64,000 nucleotides of DNA from NCBI GenBank assembly GCA_021778895.1, contig JAJYBR010000001.1, forward strand, positions 1 through 64,000. The letters run 5' to 3'. The translations under genes and the position numbers were made by a program. The notes beneath the pieces are model-generated. The model was not told the origin of the DNA, did not search any database, and saw only the letters and a program-made list of their open reading frames with translations. Positions 12,914 to 37,981 of this stretch are shown piece by piece; within the stretch, counting starts at the first letter, position 1; each line of letters begins with the position of its first letter. The stretch comes from Actinomycetes bacterium. Its GTDB lineage: Bacteria > Actinomycetota > Acidimicrobiia > Acidimicrobiales > RAAP-2.

Positions 12914-14355
<1,442 letters not shown>

Positions 14356-15499: not shown

Positions 15500-15652
15500 G
15501 GGCCCTCCAGGCTAGCGGGGCGGCCGCGGGCGACTCGGGCCCGCAGTCGGCCTCTCGCCGGTGGTCCGCGGGGCGGTCGGCCCGGTGGCGCTCACGGAAA
15601 ACTCCCAGCCAACTCCCACCTGCCTCGGAACGCGGGCTGGTAGACGGGGGAG

Positions 15653-15916: not shown

Positions 15917-15920
15917 CCGC

Positions 15921-17354: not shown

Positions 17355-17384
17355 CGCTCACCCCCTCGGAGTGGTCCTGACGCG

Positions 17385-17963: not shown

Positions 17964-17969
17964 CGGTCC

Positions 17970-17975
17970 AGGATA
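17970..17975 (-). promoter_or_regulatory. -10 box TATCCT of the leaderless tetR promoter
   Basis: Read on the minus strand, TATCCT ends six bases before the GTG at 17963. It overlaps the left arm of the operator-like repeat. Confidence 0.65.
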
Positions 17976-17991
17976 CCAGACAGACCGGTAT
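17973..17991. promoter_or_regulatory. Inverted repeat ATACC-N9-GGTAT, probable TetR operator
   Basis: ATACC (17973-17977) and GGTAT (17987-17991) form a 19-base palindrome between divergent genes. It overlaps the -10 boxes of both promoters, so one bound repressor dimer could silence both. Confidence 0.65.
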
Positions 17992-17994
17992 ACT
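17989..17994 (+). promoter_or_regulatory. -10 box TATACT of the leaderless Grx-TrxR promoter
   Basis: TATACT ends six bases before the ATG at 18001 and overlaps the right arm of the operator-like repeat. Confidence 0.65.
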
Positions 17995-18000
17995 CAGTGC

Positions 18001-20348: not shown

Positions 20349-21643
20349 CGGCCCGTGGCGGACTCGAACCCTCGAGCGAGGTCGGCCAGGAGGTCCTCTA
20401 AGGACTCGAGGCCCACCGACAACCGGATCAGGTCGGGCGACACCCCCGAGCTGCGCTGCTCGTCGGGCGTCAGCTGGGAGTGCGTCGTCGATGCCGGGTG
20501 GATCGCGAGGCTCCGCACGTCCCCGACGTTAGCCAAGTGGCTGAAGAGCGTCAGGCCCTCGATGAAGCGGCGACCCGCCTCGGCGTCCCCGCGGATGCCG
20601 AAGGCGATGATGGCGCCGGCCCCGCGGGGCAGGTCGCGCAGCTGGCGCTCGTGCCAGGGGCTCGAGGCCAGTCCCGCGTAGGCGACCCAGGCGACGTCCT
20701 CGCGCGCCTCGAGCCAGGTGGCGACTGCGGTGGCGTTGGCCACGTGGCGCTCCATGCGCAGGCTCAGGGTCTCGATGCCCTGGAGGATGAGGAACGCGTT
20801 GAACGGTGAGATGGCCGCCCCCATGTCCCGCAGGTACTGCAAGCGGGCCTTGAGGACGAAGCGGGCCGCGCGCAGCGGCTCGGGCAGCTCGGCCAGCACC
20901 AGGCCGTGGTAGCTGGGGTCGGGCTCGGTGAAGGCCGGAAAGCGGCCGCTGGCCTCGTAGTCGAAGTGCCCACCATCCACGATGATGCCGCCGATCGAGG
21001 TCCCGTGGCCCCCGAGGAACTTCGTGGCCGAGTGGACGACGATGTCGGCGCCCAGGTCGAGAGGACGCGCCAGGTAGGGGGTGGCCAGCGTGTTGTCGAC
21101 GACGAGCGGGACCCCGGCGGCGTGGGCCACGCCCGCGACAGCGGCCACATCGAGGACGTCGCCCTTGGGGTTCCCCAGCATCTCGGCGTAGAAGGCGCGG
21201 GTGCGCGGCGTGACCGCCCGAGCCCAGGCCTGCGGGTCGTCGGGCTCGGTGACGAACGTGACGTCGATGCCGAACTTGGGCAGCGTGTGGTGCAGCAGCG
21301 AGTACGTGCCGCCGTAGAGCGAGCTCGAGGCGACGACGTGGCCGCCACCCTCGGCCAGCGTCAAAAGCGTCACGGTCTCGGCGGCCTGGCCCGACGCCAC
21401 CGCCAGCGCGGCCACGCCGTGCTCGAGCGCGGCGACGCGCTCTTCGAGCACGTTCTGGGTCGGGTTCATGATGCGGGTGTAGATGTTCCCGCTCTCGCGC
21501 AGGTCGAAGAGCGCGGCGGCGTGCTCGGTGTCGCGGAACACGAAGCTGCTCGTCTGGTAGATGGGCACCGCGCGGGCCCCGGTCGTCGGGTCGGGCACAG
21601 CGCCCGCGTGGATCTGCTGCGTCTCGAAGCCCCAGTCGCTCAC
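20345..21643 (-). CDS. metY: O-acetylhomoserine sulfhydrylase (MetY)
   Basis: The 432-residue PLP enzyme of the Cys/Met metabolism family begins WGFETQQIHAGAVPDPTTGARAVPIYQTSSF. The PLP lysine is in HSATKFLGGHGTSIGG. The extended central insert (FPAFTEPDPSYHGL) is typical of O-acetylhomoserine sulfhydrylase as opposed to cystathionine synthases. It makes homocysteine from O-acetylhomoserine and sulfide. The GTG at 21643 has AAGGAGG upstream. Transcription is from a TTGACT-N18-TAGATT promoter that carries an inverted repeat. Confidence 0.93.
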   Translation of the reverse strand: MSDWGFETQQIHAGAVPDPTTGARAVPIYQTSSFVFRDTEHAAALFDLRESGNIYTRIMNPTQNVLEERVAALEHGVAALAVASGQAAETVTLLTLAEGGGHVVASSSLYGGTYSLLHHTLPKFGIDVTFVTEPDDPQAWARAVTPRTRAFYAEMLGNPKGDVLDVAAVAGVAHAAGVPLVVDNTLATPYLARPLDLGADIVVHSATKFLGGHGTSIGGIIVDGGHFDYEASGRFPAFTEPDPSYHGLVLAELPEPLRAARFVLKARLQYLRDMGAAISPFNAFLILQGIETLSLRMERHVANATAVATWLEAREDVAWVAYAGLASSPWHERQLRDLPRGAGAIIAFGIRGDAEAGRRFIEGLTLFSHLANVGDVRSLAIHPASTTHSQLTPDEQRSSGVSPDLIRLSVGLESLEDLLADLARGFESATGR

Positions 21644-21669
21644 GCTCGCCTCCTTGGCCGCTCGTCGTG

Positions 21670-21706
21670 ATCGGACAATCTACATAAATCCGATTGAAGT
21701 AGTCAA
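21670..21706 (-). promoter_or_regulatory. metYX promoter with Rrf2-like operator
   Basis: On the minus strand a -35 TTGACT (21701-21706), an 18-base spacer and a -10 TAGATT (21677-21682) form one of the best sigma-70-type promoters in the window. An inverted repeat ATCGGA (21670-21675) / TCCGAT (21689-21694) brackets the -10. The TTGACT...TCGGA pattern resembles boxes of Rrf2-family regulators (IscR/CymR type), which would fit sulfur control; that link is inference. Confidence 0.6.
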
Positions 21707-21736
21707 TAATTCGTGGGGACGCATCCCGCCACTCGT

Positions 21737-23410
<1,674 letters not shown>

Positions 23411-23586
23411 GACCCTCCAGCGACGGACTCTGGCGCGCGAGCGACACGTCGGCGGAGGGTCGCCGAGCGAGCGTCGCGGACATGGCGCTCACCGTAGCGG
23501 GCGGGCGACACGGGGAACGTCGTCCTTGACGTTGTCGCGCGGTTGTGACTTGCTAGCCTGCCAGGAACGGTGTGAGGGAGGGCCTC

Positions 23587-24420
23587 ATGGGTGTGCCAGG
23601 AATAGGGAGCCGCGGGCGTGGCCGGATGGCGGCGACCGGAGTGCGTCGAGCGGCAGTCGTGGCATTCGCGACGTTCTTGACCGTGGGCCTGACGCCGCTG
23701 ACCGCCTCCGCGGCCACCAACATTTACAGCGGCACGGGCTACGACGTGTCGTACCCGAACTGCACGGACAGTGTGCCGTACAACCCGACGTTCGGCATCG
23801 TCGGGATGACTGGCGGGCGCCCCTTCTCCACCAACGGGTGCGCAGCGACCGAGTGGCAAACCGCGTCGAAATGGTCGGTCGGACCTTCGGCATACTTCAA
23901 CACCGGCTACGCCGGCGCGTACGCCAAGTCGATCACAGGTACCTGTTCCGGCTTGTCGCAGACTACTGCTGTCAACTTGGGCACGTTCAACGGCCTAAAG
24001 GGTCACGCAATCAGCCAAGCCGAAGAGGCCTGGGCGATTGGGTGCAGCGAGGTCGACTGGGCTCAATCAGTTCTTGGCGGGTTCACAACGTCTGCGCCCG
24101 TGATGTGGTGGGCCGATATCGAGACCGGTAACAGCTGGTCGATGAACACGAGTCTCAACCAGTTCACGATCGATGGAATCAGTTACGAAATGCAGCACAT
24201 GACCTCAGTTCCGGGTCTGGGCGGCATCTACTCCACCGTGGCCTCGTGGTCCAAGATCACCGGGAGCGCATCGTGGACGCCGACGCCCCCTCCCTCGGCC
24301 AACTGGGTCGCTGGCGTGACGAACTGCACCAATGCCTCGTCGCCGTTCGACACCAGCGTGCCCGCATGGCTGGTTCAGACGAGCCAGACCGGAAGCGTTG
24401 ACGTCGACACCGTCTGTTGA
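23587..24420 (+). CDS. Secreted GH25-like / DUF1906-type protein
   Basis: The 277-residue exported protein has a signal peptide of about 38 residues (GVRRAAVVAFATFLTVGLTP, cleavage near TASAA). The mature part, with GYDVSYPNCTD, FNTGYAGAYAKS and MWWADIETGNSWSMNTSLN, resembles secreted TIM-barrel hydrolases of the glycoside hydrolase 25-like group. The DxE in WADIETG sits where the catalytic acid pair is found. Cell-wall hydrolysis is possible but not proven. A TAGCCT -10 box is at 23554-23559; GGGAGGG precedes the chosen ATG. An in-frame GTG at 23572 is an alternative start. Confidence 0.65.
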   Translation: MGVPGIGSRGRGRMAATGVRRAAVVAFATFLTVGLTPLTASAATNIYSGTGYDVSYPNCTDSVPYNPTFGIVGMTGGRPFSTNGCAATEWQTASKWSVGPSAYFNTGYAGAYAKSITGTCSGLSQTTAVNLGTFNGLKGHAISQAEEAWAIGCSEVDWAQSVLGGFTTSAPVMWWADIETGNSWSMNTSLNQFTIDGISYEMQHMTSVPGLGGIYSTVASWSKITGSASWTPTPPPSANWVAGVTNCTNASSPFDTSVPAWLVQTSQTGSVDVDTVC

Positions 24421-24513
24421 CGAGTGATCGGTCGGAGCCCGCTCGTAGCGAAGGGTGTGACCCGGCTACGGTGAGGTGTGCAGCCGCGAAGGCGTGGCGC
24501 ACAGGAGTCCGTT

Positions 24514-24747
24514 ATGGGTGATTCCGAGGATCCAGTCGAGCGCTTCGTCCATCAGACACCGGTTCCCGCCGAGAGCGACCCCGTTGCCCGTGTGCCCGAC
24601 TCCTCGTCGACGCATCGGCGGCGAGGCTGGCTCCTGCGCTTCCTGTTCGAGAAGCGGCCTAGCCCCTACAGCTCGATCTCCCCGCGTCGTGCCGACGGAA
24701 CGCGAACCAAGCTTTTCTTTTTCAACGGCAGCGGCCGCGGGCGCTAG
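24514..24747 (+). CDS. Small hypothetical protein, 77 residues
   Basis: The product is acidic at the start (MGDSEDPVERF) and strongly basic later (SSTHRRRGWLLRFLFEKRP; SPRRADGTRTKLFFFNGSGRGR). No domain or membrane helix is recognised. The ATG at 24514 has AGGAG upstream. A GTG at 24478, five bases after a TACGGT box, would give a leaderless alternative with 12 extra residues. It is convergent with the aminotransferase. Confidence 0.4.
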   Translation: MGDSEDPVERFVHQTPVPAESDPVARVPDSSSTHRRRGWLLRFLFEKRPSPYSSISPRRADGTRTKLFFFNGSGRGR

Positions 24748-24770
24748 CCCGACGGCGCGGCACCTCCGGC

Positions 24771-25952
24771 TCAGCTCGTCCGGAGTGCGCCGACGTACTC
24801 ACCGAGCCGCGTGAGTCCTTCGCGCAACTCCTCGCGCGATACCGAGTAGGACAGCCGCACGTGCGTGTGAGCGGTCGCGGTACCGAAGTCGCGGCCCGGC
24901 GTGAGAGCGACGTGGGCGCGCTCGAGCGCGTCCTCGCAGAACTGCCACGCGTCGAGCCCGGTGCTCGACACGTCGAAGTAGGCGTAGAAGGCCCCGTCGG
25001 GAGTGACGGTGACGGGCAGGCCCAGGTGTGAGAGACCGTCGACGACGATGCGCCGGCGCTCGACCAGGTCCCGACGGCGATCCTCGCTGAGAGCCAATGA
25101 TTCCGGAGTGAAGCAGGCGAGGGCGGCCATCTGGGCGGGAGCTGACGCGCACAAGAAGTAGTTCATGGCCAGGCGCTCCACGGGCTCGACGAGTGCCTCG
25201 GGCAGCAGGCACCAACCCAGGCGCCACCCGGTCATCCCGAAGTACTTCGAGAAGCTGTTGATGACGATGGCGTCCGGGTCGCCGGCGAGGATCGTGGGTA
25301 CCGCCGTACCGTCGGACTCGGGATCAGCGAGGTTCAGGTAGATCTCGTCGACGATGCGCCAGGTGTCGCGAGCGCGAGCCAGGTCGCAGATCGCCACCAG
25401 CTCGGCCGACGGGATGCGGGTCCCCGTCGGGTTCGCGGGGCTGGCCATCATGACGGCGCTGGTGTGCTCGGTCCACGCGCCTGCCACGGTATCCGCGCTG
25501 AGCTGGAGCCGTGTCGCCGGCGTTGTGGGCACGGAGACGACACGTCCGCCGAAGGAGGCCACCAGCTGGCGGTTGCACGGGTAGGCCGGGTCGGCGAGCA
25601 GGATCTCGTCGTCGGGTTCCGTGGTCGCGGCGATGACGAGGAGCAGGGCCGATGACGCTCCTGACGTGATCGCGATCCGCGCGGGATCGACGGTGACGCC
25701 ATGGCGGTCGCGGTAGAAGCCGGCGATCGCCTGACGCAGCACGGGCAGGCCGAGGGCCGGCGTGTAGGGGAGGGGACGGCCGTCCATGACTTCGCGCATC
25801 GCTTCGCGCACCGCCGGTGGCGCCCCGTAGTCGGGCTCGCCGAGACTGAGCTTCACGACGTGGTGGCCTGCCGCCTCGAGCTCGGCGGCGCGCTGCCCGA
25901 AGGACATGGCGTAGAAGGGCTCAACGGTCTGGGCGCGCTGGGCGATCTTCAT
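24771..25952 (-). CDS. Class I/II PLP-dependent aminotransferase (AspC/ArAT-like)
   Basis: The 393-residue fold-type I aminotransferase has KLSLGEPDYGAPPAVREAM, ITSGASSALLLVI, the MMASPANPTGTRIP loop, IVDEIYLNL and the PLP lysine in INSFSKYFGMTGWRLGWCLLP. The C-terminal arginine is in HVRLSYSV. The substrate may be aspartate, an aromatic or a branched amino acid; motifs cannot decide. The ATG at 25952 (MKIAQRAQ) was chosen because GAAGGAG lies six bases upstream. Monocistronic. Confidence 0.88.
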   Translation of the reverse strand: MKIAQRAQTVEPFYAMSFGQRAAELEAAGHHVVKLSLGEPDYGAPPAVREAMREVMDGRPLPYTPALGLPVLRQAIAGFYRDRHGVTVDPARIAITSGASSALLLVIAATTEPDDEILLADPAYPCNRQLVASFGGRVVSVPTTPATRLQLSADTVAGAWTEHTSAVMMASPANPTGTRIPSAELVAICDLARARDTWRIVDEIYLNLADPESDGTAVPTILAGDPDAIVINSFSKYFGMTGWRLGWCLLPEALVEPVERLAMNYFLCASAPAQMAALACFTPESLALSEDRRRDLVERRRIVVDGLSHLGLPVTVTPDGAFYAYFDVSSTGLDAWQFCEDALERAHVALTPGRDFGTATAHTHVRLSYSVSREELREGLTRLGEYVGALRTS

Positions 25953-26124
25953 GGGCACTCCTTCGATCTGGGGACGCACCGTGGTGGGCGACTGCTGAAC
26001 GGCGCGAACTCATCGTGACACGTGGCCGGGGCCACCCGTCGGAGGTTCCCGGCTGGCGCGAGTGCAGCGGCTGCCCCCGGCTTCGCCCTTGGCTACCGTG
26101 GAACGGATCGAGAAAGGACGAGCC

Positions 26125-26919
26125 GTGGCTGGCGCAGAACCGAGTCCCGGGGCCTACTTCGAGCGTGAGTCGGTTCGCCGATTCCGTCCGACACCGCACG
26201 TCGGGGGAGGCTGGAATCCCGACGAGCAGCACATCGCGCCCGCCATCGGCCTGCTCGCGCACATGATCGAGCTCGACCGCGACGAGCGTCGGGAGGACGA
26301 TCTGGTTATTTCGCGGCTGTCGTGCGACATCCTGGGCACCATTCCCTTGGAGAGCGTCGAGATCGCGGTTGACGTGCTACGGCCCGGTCGCACCATCGAG
26401 CTCGTCGAGGCGCGACTGATCCACGACGGACGAAACGCAGCCCTGGCACGCGCGTGGCTCGTCCGCCGCCACGACACGCGGGACTACGCGGGCACGCCAC
26501 TCGTCCGAATCACTCCACCGGACGACTTGCCGACACGCACCCCGGGTGATCTGTGGCCCGGCGGCTTCGTTCGCTCCGTCGAGGCCCGAAGCGCGGGTGG
26601 TGAACCCGGTCGCGCGACGTTCTGGATCCGCACCGACGTCGAGCTGGTCGCCGGCGAGACGGCCAGTCCCACTGCCCGGATGCTCGGGTTCGTCGACATC
26701 GCCAATGGAGCGACACCGCGAGTCTCGGCCGAGGAGGTCTTCTTTCCCAACCTCGACCTCACCGCGCACATCTTCCGCGAGCCCCGCGGTGACTGGGTGG
26801 GCTTCGACACGTACGTGTCCTTCGGGCTCGATGGACGCGGGCTCACACACACCGTGCTCCACGACGTCACCGGACCGCTGGGCGCCGTCGAGCAGACACT
26901 CACGGTGCGACCGCGCTGA
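26125..26919 (+). CDS. Acyl-CoA thioesterase-like protein (double hotdog, TesB/4HBT_3 type)
   Basis: The 264-residue protein of the size of a two-hotdog thioesterase has DDLVISRLSCDILGTIPLESVEIAVDVLRPGRTIELVEA in the first half. RATFWIRTDVELVAGE and ISFGLDGRGLTHTVLHD-like text (VSFGLDGRGLTHTVLHDVTG) in the second match the family end. It is likely to act on acyl-CoA in the cytoplasm; substrate unknown. The GTG at 26125 follows GAAAGGA, with a TACCGT box at 26094-26099. It is the last backbone gene before the accessory region. Confidence 0.75.
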   Translation: MAGAEPSPGAYFERESVRRFRPTPHVGGGWNPDEQHIAPAIGLLAHMIELDRDERREDDLVISRLSCDILGTIPLESVEIAVDVLRPGRTIELVEARLIHDGRNAALARAWLVRRHDTRDYAGTPLVRITPPDDLPTRTPGDLWPGGFVRSVEARSAGGEPGRATFWIRTDVELVAGETASPTARMLGFVDIANGATPRVSAEEVFFPNLDLTAHIFREPRGDWVGFDTYVSFGLDGRGLTHTVLHDVTGPLGAVEQTLTVRPR

Positions 26920-27159
26920 TCTCGCGGCCACCGGTCGCAACGTGCGTCTTTGCGTCACTCGCACACCGCCTCTGACTCACCAACTGTCGGTAGTCGACCA
27001 CGGAATGCCACGTCGCGCCGGAGGCGACCTAGCAATCTGACGTTCGCTGATCGAAACTCGCAGCCGATGTCACGTGGGTGTTCCTAGTGGCTGGAGGTGT
27101 CCTCACCAGACTGTGTCCTTGTGGGCACTTCCCAACTGACACGGGGCCTAGTCTGAGAG
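26920..27159. other. Intergenic stretch at the edge of the accessory region
   Basis: I see no gene in these 240 bases. The G+C content begins to fall here, and the end of the stretch contains the TAGTCT box of the repeated mini-ORF. Confidence 0.5.
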
Positions 27160-27215
27160 ATGAGATTCGCGCGGAACCATTCGCGGAGGTTCGCGCGGAA
27201 GTCCCGCCCCCGTGG
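27149..27215 (+). repeat. Direct repeat copy 1 (tRNA-Arg upstream sequence)
   Basis: About 65 bases match 35927-35991 with roughly seven differences. The match runs from the TAG(T/G)CT box through GAGGTTCGCGCGGAAGTC and stops at GCCCCCGT, the first eight bases of the tRNA-Arg gene. The tRNA itself is not present here. The two copies bracket the 27.2-35.98 kb segment. Confidence 0.8.
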
Positions 27216-27231
27216 GACATCCGCGAATTAG
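27160..27231 (+). CDS. Arg-rich leaderless mini-ORF, copy 1 (23 residues)
   Basis: TAGTCT ends five bases before the ATG, the window's leaderless pattern. The peptide starts MRFARNHSRRFARKSRPR and shares ARN-SRRFARKSRPR with the copy beside the tRNA. It may be a leader peptide remnant or simply the coding potential of duplicated promoter DNA. Confidence 0.3.
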   Translation: MRFARNHSRRFARKSRPRGTSAN

Positions 27232-27420
27232 TCATGACCAGGACTTCTAAGCCGCCGAGTATCGCGTGGACCCTCGTCCATTGGAACGTGAAGTTCGTGC
27301 GTTTGGAACGCCATTTCGGGCGGTGACAAAGGTGCGGACTTCTAACCCGGCGTTGAAGATGGTCTTTGTCTTTCGAAGTAGACCAGTAGGAGGGACTGGC
27401 TGACTTTGTCTCGCGGCAAA
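27232..27420. other. Intergenic stretch after the mini-ORF
   Basis: These bases lie downstream of the helicase stop and contain no open frame or hairpin that I can support. Confidence 0.4.
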
Positions 27421-30400
27421 TTATTCCGTTTCTGGCACCCCAAGGATGCAAGCGGTCACTCGTTCATCGAGAGGCGCCGCTGCGGGAAGATCGGTGAAGC
27501 GCTCGGAGAAGTCCGCGAAGTCTGGAGTCTCGTGCTGCAGCCGTGCGGTTACGTCTCGAAGGAGGATGTAGCGCCGCCGCCGCGTCTCTTCTCGTTGTTG
27601 AGCAAGAAACGGTGAAACGAACTCGAGCCATCGTTCGGCGACAAGATGGGGGTCTACCGCGGTGTTCTTCGGGCTCGCGAGTGTTGCGAGTTGTGCCCAA
27701 AGCATGCCGGTCTCTTCATCGTGTTCCTTTCGAGACCGAGCGGCCCACGAAGTGATGACGGTCTCCATCTGGCTGAGCGCACGAATCATTCGCTTCGGGA
27801 GGAGCTGGCGCTCTGCCACGGTGGCGACGTCGAGGCATCGGTCCAACACGGCTGCGGCGACGTCGTCGAACTCCCGGTTGCGGGGATCCTCATCCAACAG
27901 GTTCCTCAGGCGGGATGCCACATCTGCGAGGTCTGTTGTGAACCCTCCCGAAATCGATGGATCGACCATCAGCCACCGCGGTGCGCCGTGGGCGGCGGCC
28001 GCGATCGAGAAGAATGCCCACGGATGGCGTGAGCGAAGCGGGGCAACCCGCGCCATGACCCGGCTGGTCTCCGTGCGGTAGTGATCGTAGACATCGGACG
28101 AGACGATGGCTGTCGGCCCCGACACCAATTGGCGAATCGGTTCAAGGGCGTCTTGGATCCCGTCCCAGGGTTCGCGCTGCGCCTTCGACAATTCGTCGAT
28201 CTGGTCGGTGGCGGTGACTATGACAGCGTCGTCCACGAGTTGCTCAAAGTCTGGAATCCTCAAGTTCGATCCCAGCAACTCCTCGCTCTCTCGGGCACGG
28301 CGGACCAGCTTCTCGTAGGCGCGTGTGGCGAAGGATGGACCGTCCTGAGGCCACCACGCCTGGATTGTGTCGTAGGGACTGTCCATTCGGTCGACCCGAC
28401 CGACTCGCTGTTCGGCGACCCGGAGCGTGGTTGGAAGATCCAGGTGGGCGATACACGACGCACCCTGGAGATTGAGCCCTTCGTTCATAGCATCGGAACA
28501 CAGTGCAATCGCCTGGGCGCGTGCGTCGGGTGCGAAGGCCGCGGTGACCTTGCGGCGCTGTGACTCGCTATTGGCAAGGAGGACTTCGGTTCGCCCAAGG
28601 TCCTTCGTGCTCAGTAGGACACTGAGCATTGCCAGGGTCACCGGGTGACGGTCGAAAGCCAAGACCCGCTCGTGCTCACGAGCGAGACGAGCTAGCAGGT
28701 CGACCTTGGCCATCTCGCGGGCATTCGACATTCGTCCGACCAGACTCAGCACACGTTCGTAACGATCGATCTCCTCGGCGCACATCGCCCGCCACTGCGA
28801 GAGGTCCACGAGCCACGGTTCAACATCGCACGTGAGGCGCACGATCGGTGGGCCATCTTCCAGGCGCTGGCGCAACTTTTCGATCACGTCGCCCGTATCT
28901 GTTGACTTGAAGCTCGGGTCGACAGCGAATCGTCGCGCTGCTTCCAGGGTTCCGGCGAGGTGCTCAATCACGGCCGCCCGCGACGAACGCAGTGCCTCGA
29001 GAACGTGATGACGCGCGAGACCCTTTGCGGAGTGCAATCGGAACTGCAGCCACTGGTCGTCGCTGTACTGCGAGCGCAGACTCTTCGGAACCCCTATCTC
29101 CCGCTCCAACTGCGAGATTCCGACGAGTCCATTGACCACATCGCGAACCTGGTCAGCCAGTTGGGCATCGTTGTCGGTCTCTCGTGTCGCATAGATCTCA
29201 GCGCGGTGTTCAGGGTAACGGCAGACGCGTTGGCTCACCGGATGCACGAAAGCGTCTGGATAGCGATCGACCATCTCGTTGATGTGTGCCTTCGTGCGTC
29301 GGACCGTGAAGCGCTGGATTTCGCGCCGAAGTTCCTCGATCTCGTTGGGCAGGAGCATGCCTTCACCGAGTCCCCGACGACGTTCGAGACGGTTAAGGAT
29401 GTCGAGCGTGCTGTCCTCGAAGTTGTCGGGACCAAGGAGACCCACGAGATCGAGAAGGTCGCTGGCTCCCCGACTGATCGGAGTAGCAGTGAAGAGCATG
29501 ACGTTGTCGGCAAGACTCTCGAGGACTTGGCGTGTCCGCTTGGAACTGTGATTCAAGAAGTTGTGTGCCTCATCGACCGCGAGGATTTGAGCACTCCTCA
29601 CGAGTCGACTTTCATCGCTGTTCGAATCTGCCGCCGCCCGAGACAGGATTCCGTGCGACACCGGTTCCAACATGAGTCCAAGCTGAATCGCCTCGGATTT
29701 CCACGTTCCGATGACCGCGGGGGGCCCAACCAAGACCGTAAGGTCTCGTCGTGCGCGTCCGGTGCGCCACAGTCGATCGCGCGCGGCGCGAACGAGGTGC
29801 GCACCCATGAGCGTCTTGCCCGAGCCCGTCGCGTCAGCGACCAGCACGCTCCCCACTGTCTCGGAGATCCAAAGCGCTTCGGCGATACCCGATCGTTGTG
29901 ATGGCCAGAGAGGACGGTCGACTGACGAAGGCTCGGCGAGGTAACGCGAGGCCCAGTCACCCTCAAGGAGATTGGCGCAGGCGCGCGCGAGTGCTTCCTC
30001 CCAGGAGACGACGCGCAGCAGTTGGTGGAGAAGTTGGCGAAGCTCGTCATCCCAGCTCTCACCGGCGGTCCAGTAGTTCTCAGCGATAGCGACGAGCTCG
30101 CGGTAACGCTTGGGCTCATGGATGGCGTCAAACCGTGCGTTCGCCTCGTATTGATCACCTAGCCCGAAACGTGTGAAATTGCTCGAGCCGACCGTGGCCG
30201 CATTCTCCCCAACGAAGATCTTGGCGTGGAGCCGATGGGAGCCGTGGATGAATCGCGCACTGAGTAGTCCGCGTTCCAGCGCCTCGATTGTTTGAAGCAC
30301 CTGCGCTGAGGCGCGCAGAGAGACTCCCTGTTCCTCAAGCCAGTATTCCTTGGCAATGTCGGTGAACTCAGCTCGAACGGACCGGAATTCGTGTTTGGCA

Positions 30401-30708
30401 GACGTGAAGGGTTCAGCGCCGAATACCAAGCGAACACAGGCGCCATCGCGACGCGAGATCGTCGTCCAATCGGATACGAGATGAACGAGTTCACCAAGAG
30501 AGGAGAATCCAGCAATGAGGAGTGGGGACGACGAATCAACTACGTCGTTCCACACAACATCGCGAACTTGCGATCGGCTGTAATTGACAGGAAAGCGCGT
30601 GGATTCCGGCCACGACGCTCCGCTGAGAACTATCGACGCCCGATTTCCACCTTCAATCTCAAACAGCGGAAGCTGTCCATCACGATCTTGGGGGAAACGT
30701 CCGGACAC
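27421..30708 (-). CDS. HKD (PLD-like) nuclease-SF2 helicase fusion, probable defence protein
   Basis: The 1,095-residue protein has an N-terminal phospholipase-D-type domain with a single HKD motif: His161-x-Lys163 (RLHAKIFVG) followed by GSSN at 174-177. A single motif implies a dimer active site. The helicase part has Walker A ATGSGKT (about 293-299), DEAH at 379-382, LFTATPISRGASDLLDL as motif III and RVAEQRVGRVDRMDS as motif VI. The C-terminal 300 residues are unassigned. Related HKD and SNF2/DEAH proteins occur in restriction-like systems such as DISARM, but there they are separate genes. The GTG start lies six bases after TAGGTT, with TTGGAC 16 bases further upstream. Its codon use is more AT-rich than the backbone, suggesting transfer. 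Confidence 0.8.
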   Translation of the reverse strand: MSGRFPQDRDGQLPLFEIEGGNRASIVLSGASWPESTRFPVNYSRSQVRDVVWNDVVDSSSPLLIAGFSSLGELVHLVSDWTTISRRDGACVRLVFGAEPFTSAKHEFRSVRAEFTDIAKEYWLEEQGVSLRASAQVLQTIEALERGLLSARFIHGSHRLHAKIFVGENAATVGSSNFTRFGLGDQYEANARFDAIHEPKRYRELVAIAENYWTAGESWDDELRQLLHQLLRVVSWEEALARACANLLEGDWASRYLAEPSSVDRPLWPSQRSGIAEALWISETVGSVLVADATGSGKTLMGAHLVRAARDRLWRTGRARRDLTVLVGPPAVIGTWKSEAIQLGLMLEPVSHGILSRAAADSNSDESRLVRSAQILAVDEAHNFLNHSSKRTRQVLESLADNVMLFTATPISRGASDLLDLVGLLGPDNFEDSTLDILNRLERRRGLGEGMLLPNEIEELRREIQRFTVRRTKAHINEMVDRYPDAFVHPVSQRVCRYPEHRAEIYATRETDNDAQLADQVRDVVNGLVGISQLEREIGVPKSLRSQYSDDQWLQFRLHSAKGLARHHVLEALRSSRAAVIEHLAGTLEAARRFAVDPSFKSTDTGDVIEKLRQRLEDGPPIVRLTCDVEPWLVDLSQWRAMCAEEIDRYERVLSLVGRMSNAREMAKVDLLARLAREHERVLAFDRHPVTLAMLSVLLSTKDLGRTEVLLANSESQRRKVTAAFAPDARAQAIALCSDAMNEGLNLQGASCIAHLDLPTTLRVAEQRVGRVDRMDSPYDTIQAWWPQDGPSFATRAYEKLVRRARESEELLGSNLRIPDFEQLVDDAVIVTATDQIDELSKAQREPWDGIQDALEPIRQLVSGPTAIVSSDVYDHYRTETSRVMARVAPLRSRHPWAFFSIAAAAHGAPRWLMVDPSISGGFTTDLADVASRLRNLLDEDPRNREFDDVAAAVLDRCLDVATVAERQLLPKRMIRALSQMETVITSWAARSRKEHDEETGMLWAQLATLASPKNTAVDPHLVAERWLEFVSPFLAQQREETRRRRYILLRDVTARLQHETPDFADFSERFTDLPAAAPLDERVTACILGVPETE

Positions 30709-30714
30709 TTCACG

Positions 30715-30720
30715 AACCTA
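30715..30720 (-). promoter_or_regulatory. -10 box TAGGTT of the leaderless helicase promoter
   Basis: On the minus strand TAGGTT ends six bases before the GTG at 30708. A TTGGAC -35-like element lies 16 bases upstream. Confidence 0.6.
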
Positions 30721-30885
30721 CATGACCAGTGTCATAGTCCAACGAGGGCAAATCGTCGCGGTCATCCCTCATGCGCTGGTGGAACTGACCGGGTCCCCGT
30801 GAGCTGAGCCACCCGCCGTGCGAACTCAGTTACCGAGATTGGTGAAGAGGGCAGCGTCAAGAACAGACAGCACACACCCGAGTAG

Positions 30886-31065
30886 GTGATCCGGAAGCCA
30901 GAGGACCGCGACTGCAACTTCGCCGAGGGCCTGAGCGTCGGGAAAGTCTGCAAGCACCTCGAGATCACACCCTCGACGTGTCTCCGCTGGCGCAACCAGT
31001 TCGGCTGGCGTGAGGCGGACGGCGTCAAAGACCAGCGCGAACTGCGCAAGGAGAACGGGCGCCCA
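30886..31065 (+). pseudogene. IS3-family transposase OrfA remnant
   Basis: The translation GLSVGKVCKHLEITPSTCLRWRNQFGWREADGVKDQRELRKENGR is a clear helix-turn-helix start of IS3 OrfA (family pattern: AEVCKHLEIS...YHRWRNQYGG...LKELEKEN). Homology stops near 31065 and no OrfB follows, so this is a dead fragment. It shows that the segment has accumulated insertion sequences. Confidence 0.8.
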
Positions 31066-31085
31066 AGAAGTTTGTGGCTGACCTG

Positions 31086-31114
31086 CGGGGGTGTGTTCAG
31101 TTGTCACACCCCCG
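31086..31114. terminator. Strong hairpin, terminator-like
   Basis: A perfect ten-base stem CGGGGGTGTG / CACACCCCCG with a nine-base loop lies just beyond the stop of the secreted-protein gene at 31139. No T-run follows on either strand, so termination is likely but not certain. Confidence 0.55.
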
Positions 31115-31138
31115 AGGCCGCCAAGGTTTGCGACTGTT

Positions 31139-31999
31139 CTAGTGGACGACCAGATTGCCGCCGATCACCGTCTGAGACGCGGACATGGTGCCTGTACACG
31201 TTGACGGGTTGACTCCGCTTCCATATCCATACGTCACTAGGTCACCACTGGTACCGGGCGTCCCGCCGTCCACGACGCTGAAGACGACCGGAGTGCCAAC
31301 GAGCGCGGGAGCGTTTGTGGGGATCGTGTAGCCGAACCTGGCCGTACCCGGGGCGTTCGTGGTCGCCTCGGTGACACTGGCGCACGTCACCGGTGCGGTG
31401 TAACTGAAGGCCTCGAAGGCTGAACCGGCTGGTGCCGACCACGTCCCGTAGTCGTTCGTGGTCCCGTAGCTCTCAGTACCCGCGATCGATCCGTCGCTCG
31501 CGATCGTGCCGTTCATGACAAGCGAATAGCCGGCGCCGACTCCTGTGTACATCAGCGACATCGTGAACGAAGTCCCCTGAATTAGTCCGTTCGCAGTCCA
31601 CGTGTAATTGGTGTCAGGTAGGTAATATCCCGAAGCACCGAACGCCAGAGTGTTGGGGGACAGTGCGTCGCGTGAGGTCACCATCATGCTGTGAACATAC
31701 GTGTTGCCACCGATGACGAATGACAATTTCATGGTCTCGCCCGCCGTGAAACTCCAAACGCCAGAGCCGGGAGTTGAGTAGTCAAAATTGGTGTACGTGA
31801 CGGAACCCTTGGCGGGAGTTTGGTCGAAGGCGCTGAAGGACATGTACTGAAGCGTCGTCCCAAGTTCCACGCCGCCGGTGGCCTTCGGAACGGTACTCAC
31901 CGCCGACGCCGGACTCGTCCCGATCGTCACTAGCGACGCGAGAGATACGACAATGGAGGCGAACACGCTCGTTATCGTCGACCGATGAGATGGTTGCAT
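31139..31999 (-). CDS. Secreted protein of unknown function, Thr/Ser/Gly-rich beta type
   Basis: The 286-residue product has a signal peptide (STITSVFASIVVSLASLVTI, cleavage near SPASA). The mature chain is rich in Thr, Ser, Gly and Tyr in alternating strand-like patterns (GSVTYTNFDYSTPGSGVWSF; GTSFTMSLMYTGVGAGYSLV). Only two cysteines are present late in the chain (VTCASVTE and STCTGTM), perhaps one disulfide. No known domain is recognised. An upstream ATG at 32023 is also possible; 31999 was chosen because AAGGTAGG lies before it. More AT-rich than backbone genes. Confidence 0.6.
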   Translation of the reverse strand: MQPSHRSTITSVFASIVVSLASLVTIGTSPASAVSTVPKATGGVELGTTLQYMSFSAFDQTPAKGSVTYTNFDYSTPGSGVWSFTAGETMKLSFVIGGNTYVHSMMVTSRDALSPNTLAFGASGYYLPDTNYTWTANGLIQGTSFTMSLMYTGVGAGYSLVMNGTIASDGSIAGTESYGTTNDYGTWSAPAGSAFEAFSYTAPVTCASVTEATTNAPGTARFGYTIPTNAPALVGTPVVFSVVDGGTPGTSGDLVTYGYGSGVNPSTCTGTMSASQTVIGGNLVVH

Positions 32000-32023
32000 G
32001 AGACACCTACCTTTTCTCTTCAT

Positions 32024-32234
32024 TCATTGTCGAATGACCGTCCAGGGTGTCGGTCTCGCCATTCATTCCCCATCAGCGATGGCGACCGCATTGAGAGCTG
32101 ATGGATTGTCACACCACGCCTGTAATTCGCAGGCTACAACCTCATCGTCGGTGGTGCAAACGGAAGCACTGGGGATCACGTCCCGCCGAGTGGTGTAACT
32201 CTGATGGAGCACCTCTCGATGTTGGGTCATCTTC
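32024..32234. other. Intergenic stretch between secreted-protein gene and IS256
   Basis: It contains the promoter side of the gene at 31999 and the outer end of the IS256 element. The sequence near 32181-32200 (GTGTAACTCTGATGG) weakly resembles the inverted sequence near 33535 and may be the IS terminal repeat. Confidence 0.35.
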
Positions 32235-33461
32235 TCACTTGACCTTGGCCAGGGCAACCGGCGCTGACTGCAGCGCGTCACACTTCAACTGATCCATGGA
32301 CTCCTGGCTGAGATAGCGACGCTCTGAGACGGTCCACTCGTCGTGCTGTTCGACGACGACGGCGGTGATGAGTCGAAGGGCCGCGGCGTCGTTGGGGAAG
32401 ATCCCCACGACGTTGGTGCGCCGCTTGATCTCGGCGTTGAGTCGCTCGAGCGAGTTCGTCGACCAGATCTTCTGCCAGTGGTTCGTCGGGAAGTGGCGAA
32501 ACGCGGTGAGGTCCTCAGCCGCGTCGAGCAGCATCTCATTCACGACGCCGAACTGGCGCTTCATGGTGGCCGCCACCTCCTTCAACTGACGCTCGACGTG
32601 GGTCGCGTCGGGCTGGGCGAAGATCGTGCGGATCATCGCGGCCACCATCTGCTGGTGGTTCTTGGGCACCTTCACGAGCACGTTGCGCATGAAGTGCACC
32701 CGACAGCGCTGCCAGGAGGCCCCGGGAAAGACCTTGGCAATGGCGGCCTTGAGGCCCAGGTGGGAGTCGCTGATGACGAGCTGGACCCCGCGAAGGCCGC
32801 GTTCGCGCAGGCTCTGGAGGAACTCGGTCCAAAAGGCCGCGTCCTCGGAGTCGCCGATGGCGACACCTAAGACCTCACGAGAGGCATCCTCGGCGACGCC
32901 GGTCGCGACGACGACGGCCCGGGAGACGACTCGTCCGCCGACGCGGGCCTTGACGTAGGTGGCGTCACAGAGCAGGTAGACAAAGCCCAGGTGGGAGAGG
33001 TTGCGAGCGCGAAAGGCCGTCATCTCCTCGTCGAGCGCGCCACAGATCCGAGAGACCTCGGACTTGGAGATCCCGGCGTCGACACCCAGAGCCGAGACCA
33101 GGTCGTCGACCTTGCGGGTGGAGACCCCGTGGACGTAAGCCTCCATGACCACGGCGTAGAGGGCCTGGTCGATGCGTCGGCGGCGCTCGAGCACACTCGG
33201 GAAGAACGAGCCCTTGCGCAGCTTCGGGATCTTCAGCTCGACGTCGCCGGCCTTGGTGGTGAGCAGACGGGGTCGCGAGCCGTTGCGCTGGGTCGTTCGG
33301 GCCAGCGTGCGCTCGTGGCGCTCGGCCCGGACGACCTCGGTCGCCTCGGCCTCGATGAGGGCCTGGTAGAGGAACGCGACCATCTGGCGAACGAGGTCCC
33401 CGCTCTCGTCGCTCTGGAGTGCGTCGAGCACCGTGGATAGGTCAAAATCTGTCTGGGTCAC
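32235..33461 (-). mobile_element. IS256-family transposase (complete)
   Basis: The 408-residue DDE transposase of the mutator/IS256 family has first Asp in YLLCDATYVKARV, second in LVISDSHLGLKAAIAKVFPGA with the WQRCRVHFMRNVL motif, and the Glu in STNSLERLNAEIKRRTNVVG. Length and motifs indicate an intact enzyme. The GTG at 33461 was chosen because AAAGGA lies upstream; an ATG at 33494 is an alternative. Terminal repeats could not be fixed precisely. Confidence 0.9.
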
Positions 33462-33559
33462 CGGAGTGTTCCTTTCGTGCCTTGCAATGGACACATCAAG
33501 AACTACTCCGGTGGCCCTTCCTCACGAACGACCTCAGGATTTACTGTGATTGGCTTTAG

Positions 33560-33755
33560 GCGCCGTTCGGTTTCGGTCTGACTCGAACTTTTACTGGCGT
33601 CATGCCTTGGTGGTGATTTGTCGACCAGGACTGAGCGGCAATTCATAAGGCCAACACGTCAAGCGGAAGTGACCCAATAGGGGCCCGTCGAAAGACCCAT
33701 CACAGTACTGTCCGACCGCTCAACGTGCCAGCCGACCGTTCAAAGGAGAACCGTC
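33560..33755 (+). ncRNA. Candidate IS110 bridge-RNA region (left-end non-coding part)
   Basis: About 195 non-coding bases lie immediately upstream of the IS110 recombinase. In the IS110 group the left non-coding end encodes the bridge RNA that pairs with target and donor DNA. I infer the location from that layout only; loops and guide sequences were not resolved. Confidence 0.4.
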
Positions 33756-34832
33756 ATGGACAGCATGACACCGTTGAGTGCCGTTGACAAGATTGTCGTC
33801 GGCGTCGATACCCATAAATACCTCCACGTCGCGGTGGCCCTCGATTCACTCGGCGTGCGCCAGGGCGAGTTGACTATTGCGAGTGACACCGAGGGCTATC
33901 GGAAACTCGAGCAGTGGGCTCAGTCCCTCGGCCCCGTGGACACATTCGGTGTCGAGGGCACGAACTCCTATGGCCGGGGTCTCACGAGCTACCTGCAAAG
34001 TCACAACCATCGAGTCGTCGAAGTCTCTCGTCCCGATCGTCGTGCGCGGCGGCTCAACGGAAAGAGCGATCCACTGGATGCCGAGTCGGCGGCTCGGTCC
34101 GTGTTGGCCGGCACTTCTCAGGCACGGGCGAAGACCGCCGCGGGCCACGTCGAGATGATTCGAGCAATCAAGACGACCCGCGACGGTGCCCGAAAGGCTA
34201 GAACGGCGGCTCTCACGAGCCTGCGCAACCTCCTCATCGGTGCTCCGGCTGCGCTGCGCGAAGAGTTGGAACCTCTCACCACTCATGAGTTGATCAAGCG
34301 ATGCGCGAGCTTTCGAGTCGCCGCCATTGACTCGCCGAGCGCGTCGACGAAATACGCCCTGCGCGCACTGGCTCGGCGTCATCAGTTCCTCACTGAGGAG
34401 ATGCTGACTCAGACCACGCTGCTCGATACGTTGACGCGCACCGTGGCACCGACGCTGCGTGAGGGTTACTGCATCGGCGTCGACTCGGCCTGCGAACTCC
34501 TCGCGGCCCTGGGCGACAATCCTCAAAGAGTGCCGAGCGAAGCGGCATTCGCCAAGATGTGTGGTGCCGCGCCGGCGCCCGCGTCGTCGGGAATGACGAC
34601 GCGCCACCGACTCTCCAGGGGTGGCAACCGCCAGGCCAACGCCGCACTCCACCGCATCGTCATCGTGCGGATGCACCACGACGAACGGACCCGCGCCTAC
34701 GTCGCCAAGCGACTCGCCCAAGGACTTTCGAAGAAGGAGACTGTGCGTTGCCTGAAGCGCTACGTGGCCCGAGAGATCTATGCGCGGGTGATGCACGACG
34801 TCGTGGAACTTAAGAAGGCAGAAGTGGCGTGA
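33756..34832 (+). mobile_element. IS110-family recombinase (complete)
   Basis: The 358-residue DEDD recombinase has the N-terminal RuvC-like domain with VVGVDTHKYLHVAVAL, VEGTNSYGRGL and NGKSDPLDAESAAR. The C-terminal Transposase_20 domain has FAKMCGAAPAPASSGMTTRHRLSRGGNRQANAAL, containing the catalytic serine region. AAAGGAG precedes the ATG. Downstream, TTGACATATAGGGGCATC (34846-34863) looks like a typical IS110 right end. The element seems intact and is inserted next to the IS256. Confidence 0.9.
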
Positions 34833-34993
34833 CTGGCCAATTTGACATATAGGGGCATCACCACTTGAGGGGACGTCAACTCGAATAATCGACATGACAT
34901 CATTGGTAGCCCAATTCTCGGCGATCAGTGCATTCCTACACGTGCGCTGGTCGTGCCCGGCTCGGGGTGACGCTATGCCAGAGTCTTGACGAC

Positions 34994-35689
34994 ATGAAGA
35001 TTGACACGAAGTTCGACTTCCGGAGTGCCGCCGGCCGTAAGGACCCCGACGTCTACAGCCCAACCCTCCGTCGCTACCACCAGATCCTGTGGAGCAAGCC
35101 GTTGCTGAGCGGTGAGATGTTCGAGCTGTCCACCTCGACCCCCGGTGCGTACCTGCATCACCACTCGGGGCTCGGAGAGTTCGTCTTGACGAGTGACTCG
35201 GTCATCGTGAGCTTCCGGAGCTGGAAGTCGATGCGCTCGATCATCGAGCAGGTCCCCGACCACGAGCTGGACGCCTTCCAGGCGGCCAGCTACACCATGG
35301 GCGCGATGATGGTCTTTCCGGGAAACCGCGTCGACGGCAAGGCCACGATCAACGGGGCCCGCGGCCTCACCCGATCGATCGCCGACCGCCTGGACCTCAC
35401 CCTCGAGTGCATCCGGCGCCACTACGCGGATCGAGACAGTCCGCTTACGGCGACGCTCGATCGCTACGGTGACTTCTTCGCCCTCTTTGGGGACTTCGCT
35501 GGCTACGTGGACTTCTTCTTGCTCGATGACCTGGTCGATGACGCCTTGATGGTCAAGTACTTCATGGACTTCGACGACTTTCGCCCGCCCTCGGTGCCGA
35601 GGAACCTTGCGACCTACCTGGAGTACCGGCGTCGCTCACTCGACTTCGTGTGGGCGCGAAACGAGCGGATCGACCGACTGTCACGCTAG
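34994..35689 (+). CDS. DUF6994-like hypothetical protein
   Basis: The 231-residue soluble protein starts MKIDTKFDFRSAAGRKDPDVYSPTLRRYHQILWSKPLLSGEMFEL. Conserved-looking parts include FRSWKSMRSIIEQVPDHELDAF, NGARGLTRSIADRLDLTLECIRRHY and YGDFFALFGDFAGYVDFFLLDDLVD. I believe this pattern belongs to the DUF6994 group of unknown function; that recall is not certain. The ATG at 34994 gives the family-like N-terminus, with no good ribosome site. It is the last gene before the tRNA. Confidence 0.6.
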   Translation: MKIDTKFDFRSAAGRKDPDVYSPTLRRYHQILWSKPLLSGEMFELSTSTPGAYLHHHSGLGEFVLTSDSVIVSFRSWKSMRSIIEQVPDHELDAFQAASYTMGAMMVFPGNRVDGKATINGARGLTRSIADRLDLTLECIRRHYADRDSPLTATLDRYGDFFALFGDFAGYVDFFLLDDLVDDALMVKYFMDFDDFRPPSVPRNLATYLEYRRRSLDFVWARNERIDRLSR

Positions 35690-35926
35690 AACAACGTTGA
35701 CTAATGCCTCTGCGTCGCGTTGAAGGTAATTCGCGTTGGCTTTATGAGGGTGCTGGCAGGCCGCGATACCTCAGGGATATGAGGAATCCGATGTTCGGGG
35801 TGAGGTCCACCTAGGAGGTCGCGAGGGGGAGTTTGAGCGTCCCACGGCTTTCTACGCTTGTGAGTAGGTGGCGCACATGGAGCAGCACCGGTGCCCGTCT
35901 AGCAGAAGTCGGGAGATGTTCGCGCC
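35690..35926. other. Intergenic stretch upstream of the tRNA-Arg promoter
   Basis: No supported gene or hairpin is visible. It ends at the repeat that carries the TAGGCT box. Confidence 0.4.
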
Positions 35927-35991
35927 TAGGCTGAGTGATGAGTCTCGCGCGGAACTCTTCGCGGAGGTTCGCGCGGAAGTCCCGCCCCCGT
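35927..35991 (+). repeat. Direct repeat copy 2 (upstream of tRNA-Arg)
   Basis: Partner of 27149-27215. It includes the TAGGCT box (35927-35932), probably the tRNA promoter -10, and runs into the first eight bases of the tRNA gene. Confidence 0.8.
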
Positions 35992-36021
35992 AGCTCAGAG
36001 GATAGAGCATCGGTTTCCTAA
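35938..36021 (+). CDS. Arg-rich leaderless mini-ORF, copy 2, running into the tRNA gene
   Basis: The ATG is five bases after TAGGCT. The 27-residue peptide begins MSLARNSSRRFARKSRPR and its TAA stop lies in the tRNA anticodon loop. Its codons include AGG, the codon read by this very tRNA. It may be a chance product of tRNA leader sequence. Confidence 0.25.
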   Translation: MSLARNSSRRFARKSRPRSSEDRASVS

Positions 36022-36058
36022 ACCGTGAGCGCAGGTTCGAATCCTGCCGGGGGCACCA
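35984..36058 (+). tRNA. tRNA-Arg (anticodon CCT)
   Basis: This is a 75-base cloverleaf: acceptor GCCCCCG pairs with CGGGGGC, discriminator A, and CCA is encoded in the DNA. The D-arm is GCTC...GAGC, the anticodon loop TTCCTAA gives anticodon CCT (reads AGG), and the T-arm is GCAGGTTCGAATCCTGC. It is intact and serves as the attachment site of the element to its right, whose far end repeats the tRNA 3' half. Confidence 0.95.
36015..36055 (+). repeat. attL: tRNA 3' half, left attachment site
   Basis: The core TTCCTAAACCGTGAGCG (36015-36031) is repeated exactly at 45824-45840. The similarity continues to the end of the acceptor stem with three mismatches, so integration restored an intact tRNA. 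Confidence 0.85.
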
Positions 36059-36315
36059 TTGGTATCAGGCCATTCGGCCTGGTCACGCTCAATGTAGACA
36101 TGGCTCACTGTGGTTCACCATAGTTCGCCGTGGCTAGAGAGTCATGTCCCAAACCTGTCCCAAAATCTCTCACACAGCTTGGTCGTGTAGCCGGGCGATG
36201 CACGTGGGACCCTAGCCGGGGTCGCGCAGGATGGACATTTCGACCGTCCGGTGCTGACCTAGATTCGGTCCAGGTCGCTTCAGTAGCCTGTTCCTCCTGA
36301 GGGAAAGGTGGGACC
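36059..36315. promoter_or_regulatory. Left-end non-coding region with integrase arm-type repeats
   Basis: Two TGTCCCA repeats (36145-36151 and 36156-36162) are 11 bases apart. The same pair spacing of GTCCCA occurs at the other end (45733-45738 and 45744-45749). A TAGCCT -10 box at 36284-36289 serves the nuclease gene downstream. Confidence 0.55.
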
Positions 36316-36966
36316 GTGGGTTTCCTTGAAGACTGGGATCTCAGCTATGACGAGATCAACGAGTTGTTAACTGACAACGCGAGCCTGCGATCTTTTGTCA
36401 TGGGGTATGCCGCGGAGATCAAATGCCGCAATATGTTCTTTCGCAACCACCCGGACATCACCAACCTGCGTAAACCTGACGATCACGATCGCACTGAGAA
36501 GGGCGATTGGGTGATGGACTATAAGGGCCACACGATGAGCGTTGAGGTTAAGAGTCTGCAAACCAATTCCCTCAAGCCGAAGAAGAAGGGTGACGTGGCG
36601 CCAAATTACCAATGCGACGCCTCAGATGCTCGCACTGTTCGATTCCAAGACGGCACAGAATTGGTGACAACAGCACTGCTGGTCGGGGAGTTCGACATCG
36701 TGGCGGTGAATGTTCATGCGTTTTCAGGCAAGTGGGACTTCGCCTTTGCCAAGAACAGTGACCTTCTCACGATGGAAGAGTCGAATCGCGGCGCTGCAAA
36801 GACATACACGGAATTGCAGAAGCGCAGCCTCTTGAAGACACTGCAGCCGATGCCGCGCAGCGTTCCGGAACCCTACACGCGAAATCCCTTTGATCTCTTC
36901 GACCAGATCATCGAGAAGCGTAGGCGCGAACAGGGAGTCGTCGAATCGGCGACGGCTGTGGAATAG
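36316..36966 (+). CDS. PD-(D/E)XK restriction endonuclease-like protein
   Basis: The 216-residue product has KGDWVMDYKGHTMSVEVKSLQTN, whose D...E-V-K pattern fits the PD-(D/E)XK nuclease core: Asp in the first strand and Glu-x-Lys in the next. FDIVAVNVHAFSGKWDFAFA follows as a later core strand. The element also carries a DNA methyltransferase 1 kb away, so a type II-like restriction-modification pair is likely. The gene faces the other element genes. The GTG start has GAAAGG upstream. Distinctly more AT-rich than the backbone. Confidence 0.65.
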   Translation: MGFLEDWDLSYDEINELLTDNASLRSFVMGYAAEIKCRNMFFRNHPDITNLRKPDDHDRTEKGDWVMDYKGHTMSVEVKSLQTNSLKPKKKGDVAPNYQCDASDARTVRFQDGTELVTTALLVGEFDIVAVNVHAFSGKWDFAFAKNSDLLTMEESNRGAAKTYTELQKRSLLKTLQPMPRSVPEPYTRNPFDLFDQIIEKRRREQGVVESATAVE

Positions 36967-37054
36967 ACAGTCTGACTCTTGAGCAGCATCCGCCCAATCG
37001 GGGAAAAATCCATAACGTCCGAGTGCACTTTCTCGCTGGTTCGACGACAACTTG

Positions 37055-37870: not shown

Positions 37871-37981
37871 CTCGTCAGTATCGCCGCTGAGGGTCCACCC
37901 GGAACTGGTGCTGGCAGTACTTGAGCAAATTACTTCAGATCGAGGGATATCACTCGAGTCATGGGAAAACCGCTCCAAGTC

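Follow-up and report, generated by a model that had tools for sequence, protein, structure and literature searches.

A family of stand-alone HKD nuclease and SWI2/SNF2 motor proteins, one of them encoded on a mobile segment at a tRNA-Arg gene, and its candidate role as a self-contained restriction nuclease

Proteins that join an HKD nuclease of the phospholipase D (PLD) type to a superfamily 2 (SF2) motor in one polypeptide are known from several systems. SauUSI of Staphylococcus aureus is a Type IV enzyme that depends on ATP, translocates, and forms a dimer through its PLD domains; the single chain comprises a PLD nuclease with one HxK motif, an SF2 motor, a coupler, and an SRA domain, without a methylase, and target binding switches on ATP hydrolysis, followed by translocation and shredding between sites (PMC7913695). 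The helicase of Type-2 BREX-related (BR) systems is a fusion of an N-terminal HKD nuclease with a Swi2/Snf2 motor and belongs to multi-gene systems with a DUF499 ATPase, an N6-methylase, and DUF3780 (PMC12839542). PbeA of PbeABCD is an HKD endoDNase fused to an SF2 helicase that works with PbeB, PbeC, and PbeD (PMC10853773). Here, we analyze a 64,000-nucleotide stretch from an Actinomycetes bacterium (the window: contig JAJYBR010000001.1, positions 1 to 64,000, order Acidimicrobiales) and one gene within it, encoding a 1095-residue protein with an HKD nuclease domain, a SWI2/SNF2 motor, and a C-terminus matching nothing we compared it with. The protein founds a new family within this known kind of nuclease-motor restriction effectors, and the best-supported reading, which we hold to be somewhat more probable than not, is that it acts alone as a restriction nuclease driven by ATP, in the manner of SauUSI.

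The original prediction, made from the DNA letters alone, had seen in this gene a one-motif HKD nuclease fused to a DEAH helicase; indeed, a single H-x-K motif, a Walker A motif, and a DEAH box all lie in the one polypeptide (Table 1). In the window protein the Pfam model PLDc_2 aligns at residues 142-194 below its cut-off (18.3 vs 27 bits, E 0.0022). The same model scores above the cut-off in the family member from Neptuniibacter, L012 (31.5 bits), and in a 15-sequence family alignment H161, K163, G174, S175, S176, N177, and E188 are invariant wherever present; given these two observations, we assign the domain to the PLD type. The H-x-K motif followed by GSSN is found in 14 of the 15 aligned members, the exception being L110, which has no N-terminus.

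The motor is recognized by Pfam as SNF2-related at residues 373-507 (E 2.6e-12) and Helicase_C at residues 668-775 (E 8e-10). A full-length AlphaFold2 model of the window protein is of moderate quality (predicted local distance difference test score, pLDDT, 72.5); in a fold search, its residues 250-827 match SWI2/SNF2 motors, with the best rows among the matches listed at Z 16.6-19.0. Zorya ZorD is among these best matches (Z 18.4, root-mean-square deviation 4.7 over 408 residues).

The C-terminus was expected to be of an unknown kind, and so it appears: Pfam yields no domain past residue 775, even with E values of up to 1 allowed. The last 301 residues, modelled alone, give a confident structure for about residues 885-1090, and this model has no significant match by Foldseek against the PDB (best E 0.86) or in the VIA fold search (best Z 3.8, ferritins), and none among viral models at E 0.001 or better. 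Neither an SRA nor a RapA-like domain is listed for it in these searches, although absence from the listings does not exclude them. Judged from the model, this putative recognition part has no known relative at the sensitivity used, which by itself does not prove a new fold.

The gene is under purifying selection and maintained, as the low ratio of nonsynonymous (dN) to synonymous (dS) change against two congeners demonstrates. The proteins are about 80-82% identical; dN is 0.13 and 0.115 and dS 1.28 and 1.26, giving dN/dS of about 0.10 against congener locus L119 and 0.09 against L120, with the nuclease, motor, and C-terminal parts alike.

Members of the family occur in at least 18 genomes including the window's own (L011 and L114 being counted as one genome), plus a fragment in genome G194, according to whole-genome and genome-contig searches. 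Patterns made from the window protein alone brought up no relatives in contigs of either genomes or viruses, and an alignment was needed; the alignment-based search of genome contigs gave at least 593 stretches and 146 relatives, of which the best 80 of 146 were kept. Named members come from a Desulfocapsaceae metagenome-assembled genome (MAG), a Sedimenticola MAG, Neptuniibacter sp. PT1, and a MAG labelled WS1. The family is set apart by score: against the family profile its members reach 734-1800 bits, and every other open reading frame (ORF) in the examined loci at most 147 bits. It also forms one clade in a quick-method tree of 51 proteins (Shimodaira-Hasegawa-like approximate likelihood ratio support, SH-aLRT, 99), with four alphaproteobacterial proteins as nearest neighbors. 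This tree carries tool warnings on long branches and composition; it took 32 of the 61 rows of the wider group (every second row plus seven named ones), and its group label 'MT', assigned from score and length, also covers rows in which no methylase was detected.

The family is sparse and patchy and is spread over several phyla. With the window's own genome counted, members were found in 6 of the 172 genomes in its taxonomic family, in 4 of the 395 in its class, and, at a looser threshold, in 3 of the 396 in its phylum. Among 297 genomes of the phylum to which the Desulfocapsaceae member belongs, 6 carry the family (the centre genome counted), and the single carrier among 398 genomes of the Neptuniibacter phylum is the Neptuniibacter centre itself. 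A DNA-level search of E. coli, which has low sensitivity, found none, and plasmid searches gave 21 and 60 records, none covering 80%.

The gene had also been placed in a transferred segment near a tRNA, and we find it inside an 8.8-kb segment (27146-35991) bounded by a 68-bp direct repeat whose right copy runs into a tRNA-Arg (CCT) gene. Over positions 26920-35900 the GC fraction is 0.613, compared with 0.721 for the left flank. G1556, the nearest sibling among the genomes found, aligns with the window at 87% over 11724-26919 and at 86% over 46657-60496 and has no copy of the gene, which places the gene within a variable block at 26920-46656. A second element lies at the same tRNA, bounded by a 40-bp repeat and carrying its own integrase, so that integrated DNA stands on both sides of the tRNA-Arg gene. 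The mobility of the gene, the absence of an adjoining partner, and membership in a family of its own are supported.

Given that the gene sits in an integrated segment beside another integrated element, it could serve the segment rather than the host, acting in competition between mobile elements or in plasmid exclusion. A phage integrase two genes upstream of the member at L107, lying between the family gene and a tRNA-Ser, and the presence of distant relatives on plasmids fit this idea. However, no family match was found in 50,697 phage records or in two viral-contig scans, one of which used the family alignment, and no integrase was recognized in the gene's own 8.8-kb segment; we regard this as the least probable of the explanations considered.

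We built an N6-methylase profile from six large N6-methylases adjoining distant HKD-SNF2 relatives and searched all loci with it. Outside the family, a large N6-methylase lies within 1.5 kb in 59 of 87 loci, a set taken from the top of best-first lists; among these loci are some fragments, some proteins that lack an HKD domain, and the family fragment of G194. The profile has no match in the 17 family loci, 7 of which have flanks of 1.5 kb or more on each side, or in the four alphaproteobacterial relatives, and no N6-methylase adjoins the window gene.

That the nuclease is self-contained is supported by the order of its domains, by catalytic residues invariant in the family, by purifying selection and mobility, and by the lack of an adjoining methylase. 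In such an enzyme one polypeptide would recognize a feature of foreign DNA, track along the duplex by its SWI2/SNF2 motor, and cut with its PLD-type active site. Two copies of the protein may come together by their HKD domains, each with a single motif, so that one active site forms between them, the arrangement of SauUSI and BfiI; the motor would translocate on double-stranded DNA, and the C-terminal region would sense the target and gate the motor. Since the protein brings no methylase, the simplest way for self DNA to be spared would be for it to answer to something that the host lacks: a modification of the DNA, as Type IV enzymes do, or else a DNA end or a structure formed in replication. 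Recognition of modified DNA would be the simplest way to do without a methylase, with ends or replication structures also possible. In this way the family probably destroys foreign DNA without the companion methylase usual in its distant relatives; we infer its role in defense from these features.

Several points weigh against this account. The nuclease and ATPase activities of family members are predicted from their sequences, and the C-terminus matches no SRA or other recognition domain in Pfam or in the fold-search listings. In the Neptuniibacter locus an ATPase gene lies 26 bp downstream of the family gene, so some members may not act alone. Defense genes beside members are the exception, and the PADLOC matches given below are few and mostly generic. 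An adjoining methylase could have been missed in the family loci beyond the 7 with both flanks, and the N6-methylase profile would miss methylases of other types. Finally, the carriers in the window's phylum have a PF01555 methylase somewhere without exception: 9 of 9 in the phylum and, among these, 5 of 5 in the genus.

This last observation bears on a different explanation: the protein would be one half, nuclease plus motor, of a system resembling restriction-modification, the methylase would come from a gene at another place, and host methylation would protect self DNA. The prevalence of adjoining N6-methylases in the wider HKD-SNF2 group favors it, and PF01555 is found in 1 of 12 same-genus non-carriers, although these were hand-picked for good completeness and the carriers are more fragmented drafts. 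The window itself has a PF01555 gene 12 kb away. That copy, however, belongs to the neighboring element with its own integrase and att-like repeat; only 2 of 9 carriers from other phyla have PF01555, one of them weakly; and the carriers' enzymes are of several kinds, the best cross-carrier pairs being 49-57% identical and most pairs barely alike (G1099 was not comparable). We considered a single cognate PF01555 methylase because PF01555 tracks carriers, and rejected it because the enzymes are of several kinds. Two other methylase families, PF00145 (2 of 5 genus carriers vs 2 of 12 non-carriers) and PF02384 (2 of 5 vs 3 of 12), were also counted. The PF01555 link may mean that carriers are richer in mobile and restriction genes; protection in trans is possible. 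A methylase encoded elsewhere seems to us unlikely, if the least so of the alternatives to a self-contained nuclease.

A broader proposal, which we hold tentatively, at somewhat less than even confidence, is that an undescribed family of single-protein SWI2/SNF2-driven restriction nucleases has left the methylase-linked HKD-SNF2 lineage and become self-sufficient, with a C-terminal recognition fold outside the PDB that discriminates self from foreign DNA without a cognate methylase. If true, a methylase-dependent nuclease-motor effector turned into a one-gene barrier to foreign DNA, and did so at least twice in one clade, in the window family and in its alphaproteobacterial neighbors. How an HKD-SNF2 enzyme spares its own chromosome without a methylase would then become a testable question.

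The neighborhoods of family members give a mixed picture and do not establish the expected enrichment in defense islands. Defense or mobile genes stand at three loci: AbiEii and HNH genes beside the family gene at L119, HEPN/Toprim and TniQ genes near the Neptuniibacter gene, and the L107 integrase; against these, metabolic genes adjoin members L120, L106, L112, and L113. SIR2 and HNH genes adjoin the alphaproteobacterial relative L005. Across 138 neighboring ORFs, 22 PADLOC families matched with E values of 1e-8 or better; they are largely generic, and most were hit in a single ORF. Transfer RNA genes lie within 2.2 kb in 3 of 17 family loci: L009 (tRNA-Pro, 356 bp), L111 (tRNA-Met, 112 bp), and L107. 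A mainly housekeeping setting, which would have spoken against a defense system, is not what we see, because the family is patchy and mobile.

These metabolic neighbors also bear on whether the protein is a nuclease-motor of DNA repair or of the replication fork rather than a defense protein. SWI2/SNF2 motors include repair and transcription-recycling proteins, and RapA is the best PDB sequence match among those listed. Yet the very patchy distribution, the repeat-bounded location at a tRNA, the GC below that of the flank, and the match of the nearest relatives to defense models all argue against such a role, which we consider improbable, a little more so than a methylase encoded elsewhere.

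The absence of a partner gene, as originally predicted, holds for the genes adjoining it in the window, but three congeners have a further ORF just upstream. Its product, some 190 residues long, has hydrophobic stretches and a zinc ribbon at one end (L119:1758-2327, L120:11467-12057, L117:528-1097). We rejected this membrane/zinc-ribbon ORF as a partner: tblastn detects no copy of it in the window, and the helicase gene keeps a conserved start region of its own.

In that region the window gene starts with GTG, and two close congeners begin at the equivalent ATG. Of the promoter predicted for the gene, a TANNNT-type element kept in the congeners is suggestive, whereas a sigma-70 scan upstream found no consensus promoter. 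The element lies six bases ahead of the start codon, and we propose a leaderless transcript.

Table 1 Features of the window, with coordinates, strand, and the evidence for each.
Feature	Coordinates	Strand	Evidence
Gene for 1095-residue protein: HKD nuclease, SWI2/SNF2 motor, C-terminus of unknown kind	27421..30708	-	ORF, domains, fold, dN/dS
TANNNT-type -10-like element TAGGTT, six bases 5' of start codon	30715..30720	-	Same position in three congener loci
TGAC-N4-GTCA operator-like inverted repeat	30723..30734	-	Imperfect in 2 of 3 congener loci
HKD (PLD-type) nuclease domain, about residues 50-215	30064..30561	-	Borders estimated from structural model
H161-A-K163, single HKD-type catalytic motif	30220..30228	-	Alignment; sole H-x-K in the protein
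SWI2/SNF2-type SF2 motor, residues 250-827	28228..29961	-	Pfam, PDB sequence matches, fold search
Walker A (motif I) GSGKT, residues 295-299	29812..29826	-	Alignment, motif check
DEAH (motif II), residues 379-382	29563..29574	-	Alignment, motif check
Motif VI QRVGRVDR, residues 767-774	28387..28410	-	Motif check
C-terminal region, residues 828-1095, candidate coupler/recognition part	27424..28227	-	No Pfam domain; modelled alone
Left copy of 68-bp direct repeat bounding the 8.8-kb segment	27146..27213	+	91% identity
Right copy of 68-bp repeat: tRNA-Arg upstream sequence and first 8 tRNA bases	35924..35991	+	91% identity
tRNA-Arg (CCT), integration site	35984..36058	+	
Second element at the same tRNA-Arg, bounded by 40-bp direct repeat, anticodon-to-3' part of tRNA	36015-45863		93% identity
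Integrase of second element	44228-45565		
PF01555 methylase of second element	43077-44234		
D5-type primase-helicase of second element	41485-43140		

Other features of these loci were seen along the way. Upstream of the gene, the 8.8-kb segment contains a Mutator-family (IS256-type) transposase (32235-33494) and an IS110-type transposase (33756-34832), and between these and the tRNA-Arg lies a gene for a DUF6994 protein (34928-35689, E 6e-90). The second element includes an inverted repeat of 27 bp, almost perfect, around a 7-base loop (41394-41454), and at the right edge of the variable block there is a SET-domain ORF in a bacterium (46024-46527, E 2.6e-14). At L110 (8211-10832), the member that lacks the entire nuclease domain has a transposase-like ORF upstream that resembles ORFs of L107 and L119; the loss of the domain is perhaps recent and insertion-linked. 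On a Deinococcus radiophilus plasmid (L007:1694-11117), an N6-methylase, a GmrSD-type DUF262 protein, and an HKD-SNF2 helicase stand in a gene row, this helicase being a distant, methylase-linked relative of the family.

How new, then, is the window protein? The original prediction called it a candidate undescribed system; undescribed is true of the family and not of its architecture, known from SauUSI, PbeA, the Type-2 BR helicases, and the models C3a139, PLD_Helicase, and NF042964. The model libraries scanned (NCBIfam, PADLOC, and Pfam) do not name the family, the window protein is above no NCBIfam cut-off, and among the papers listed by our literature searches we recognized no description of a stand-alone HKD-SNF2 family of its kind.

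Among curated motor models the best matches are DpdE and DrmD, far below their NCBIfam cut-offs (85.9 vs 500 and 48.6 vs 610 bits), and the DpdK and DrmC models touch the HKD part. In DpdE/DpdK and in DrmD/DrmC, the motor and the PLD protein are separate genes of multi-gene systems; the window protein, in contrast, carries both in one chain. NF042964, a phospholipase D-like domain-containing anti-phage protein, aligns at residues 734-842 only, with 42.1 bits against a cut-off of 1100. This model and PLD_Helicase of PADLOC resemble our protein in being named as single PLD-bearing anti-phage proteins, and it is the helicase C-terminal part that matches. The PADLOC model C3a139, 'HKD+Snf2', aligns with the greater part of each of five tested relatives that are linked to a methylase (E 2e-34 to 4e-69); family members match it weakly (L012 at 1.7e-8, L112 at 1.1e-11), and the window protein falls short of a full-length match (E 3.4e-4, residues 733-777 only). 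The PbeA model, with about 670 positions vs the 1095 residues of the window protein, is matched, weakly, by the Neptuniibacter member only among the family members tested.

The Type-2 BR helicase shares the N-terminal HKD nuclease and the Swi2/Snf2 motor; its system differs in having an N6-methylase, which our profile found in none of the 17 family loci with the flanks given above, and neither DUF3780 nor DUF499 is among the Pfam matches of the 20 window ORFs scanned. With SauUSI the window protein shares the single polypeptide, with the HKD nuclease, the SF2 motor, and a C-terminal part in the same order, and the lack of an adjoining methylase. No SauUSI chain is among the PDB sequence matches to the family, and we do not claim membership in the SauUSI-type Type IV enzymes. 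In SauUSI the motor groups in alignments with those of Type I and ISP enzymes and an SRA fold serves for recognition, whereas the window motor is of the SWI2/SNF2 type and the C-terminus of the window protein matched nothing. To the known nuclease-motor effectors the family adds a C-terminal region unmatched in the PDB that may recognize DNA.

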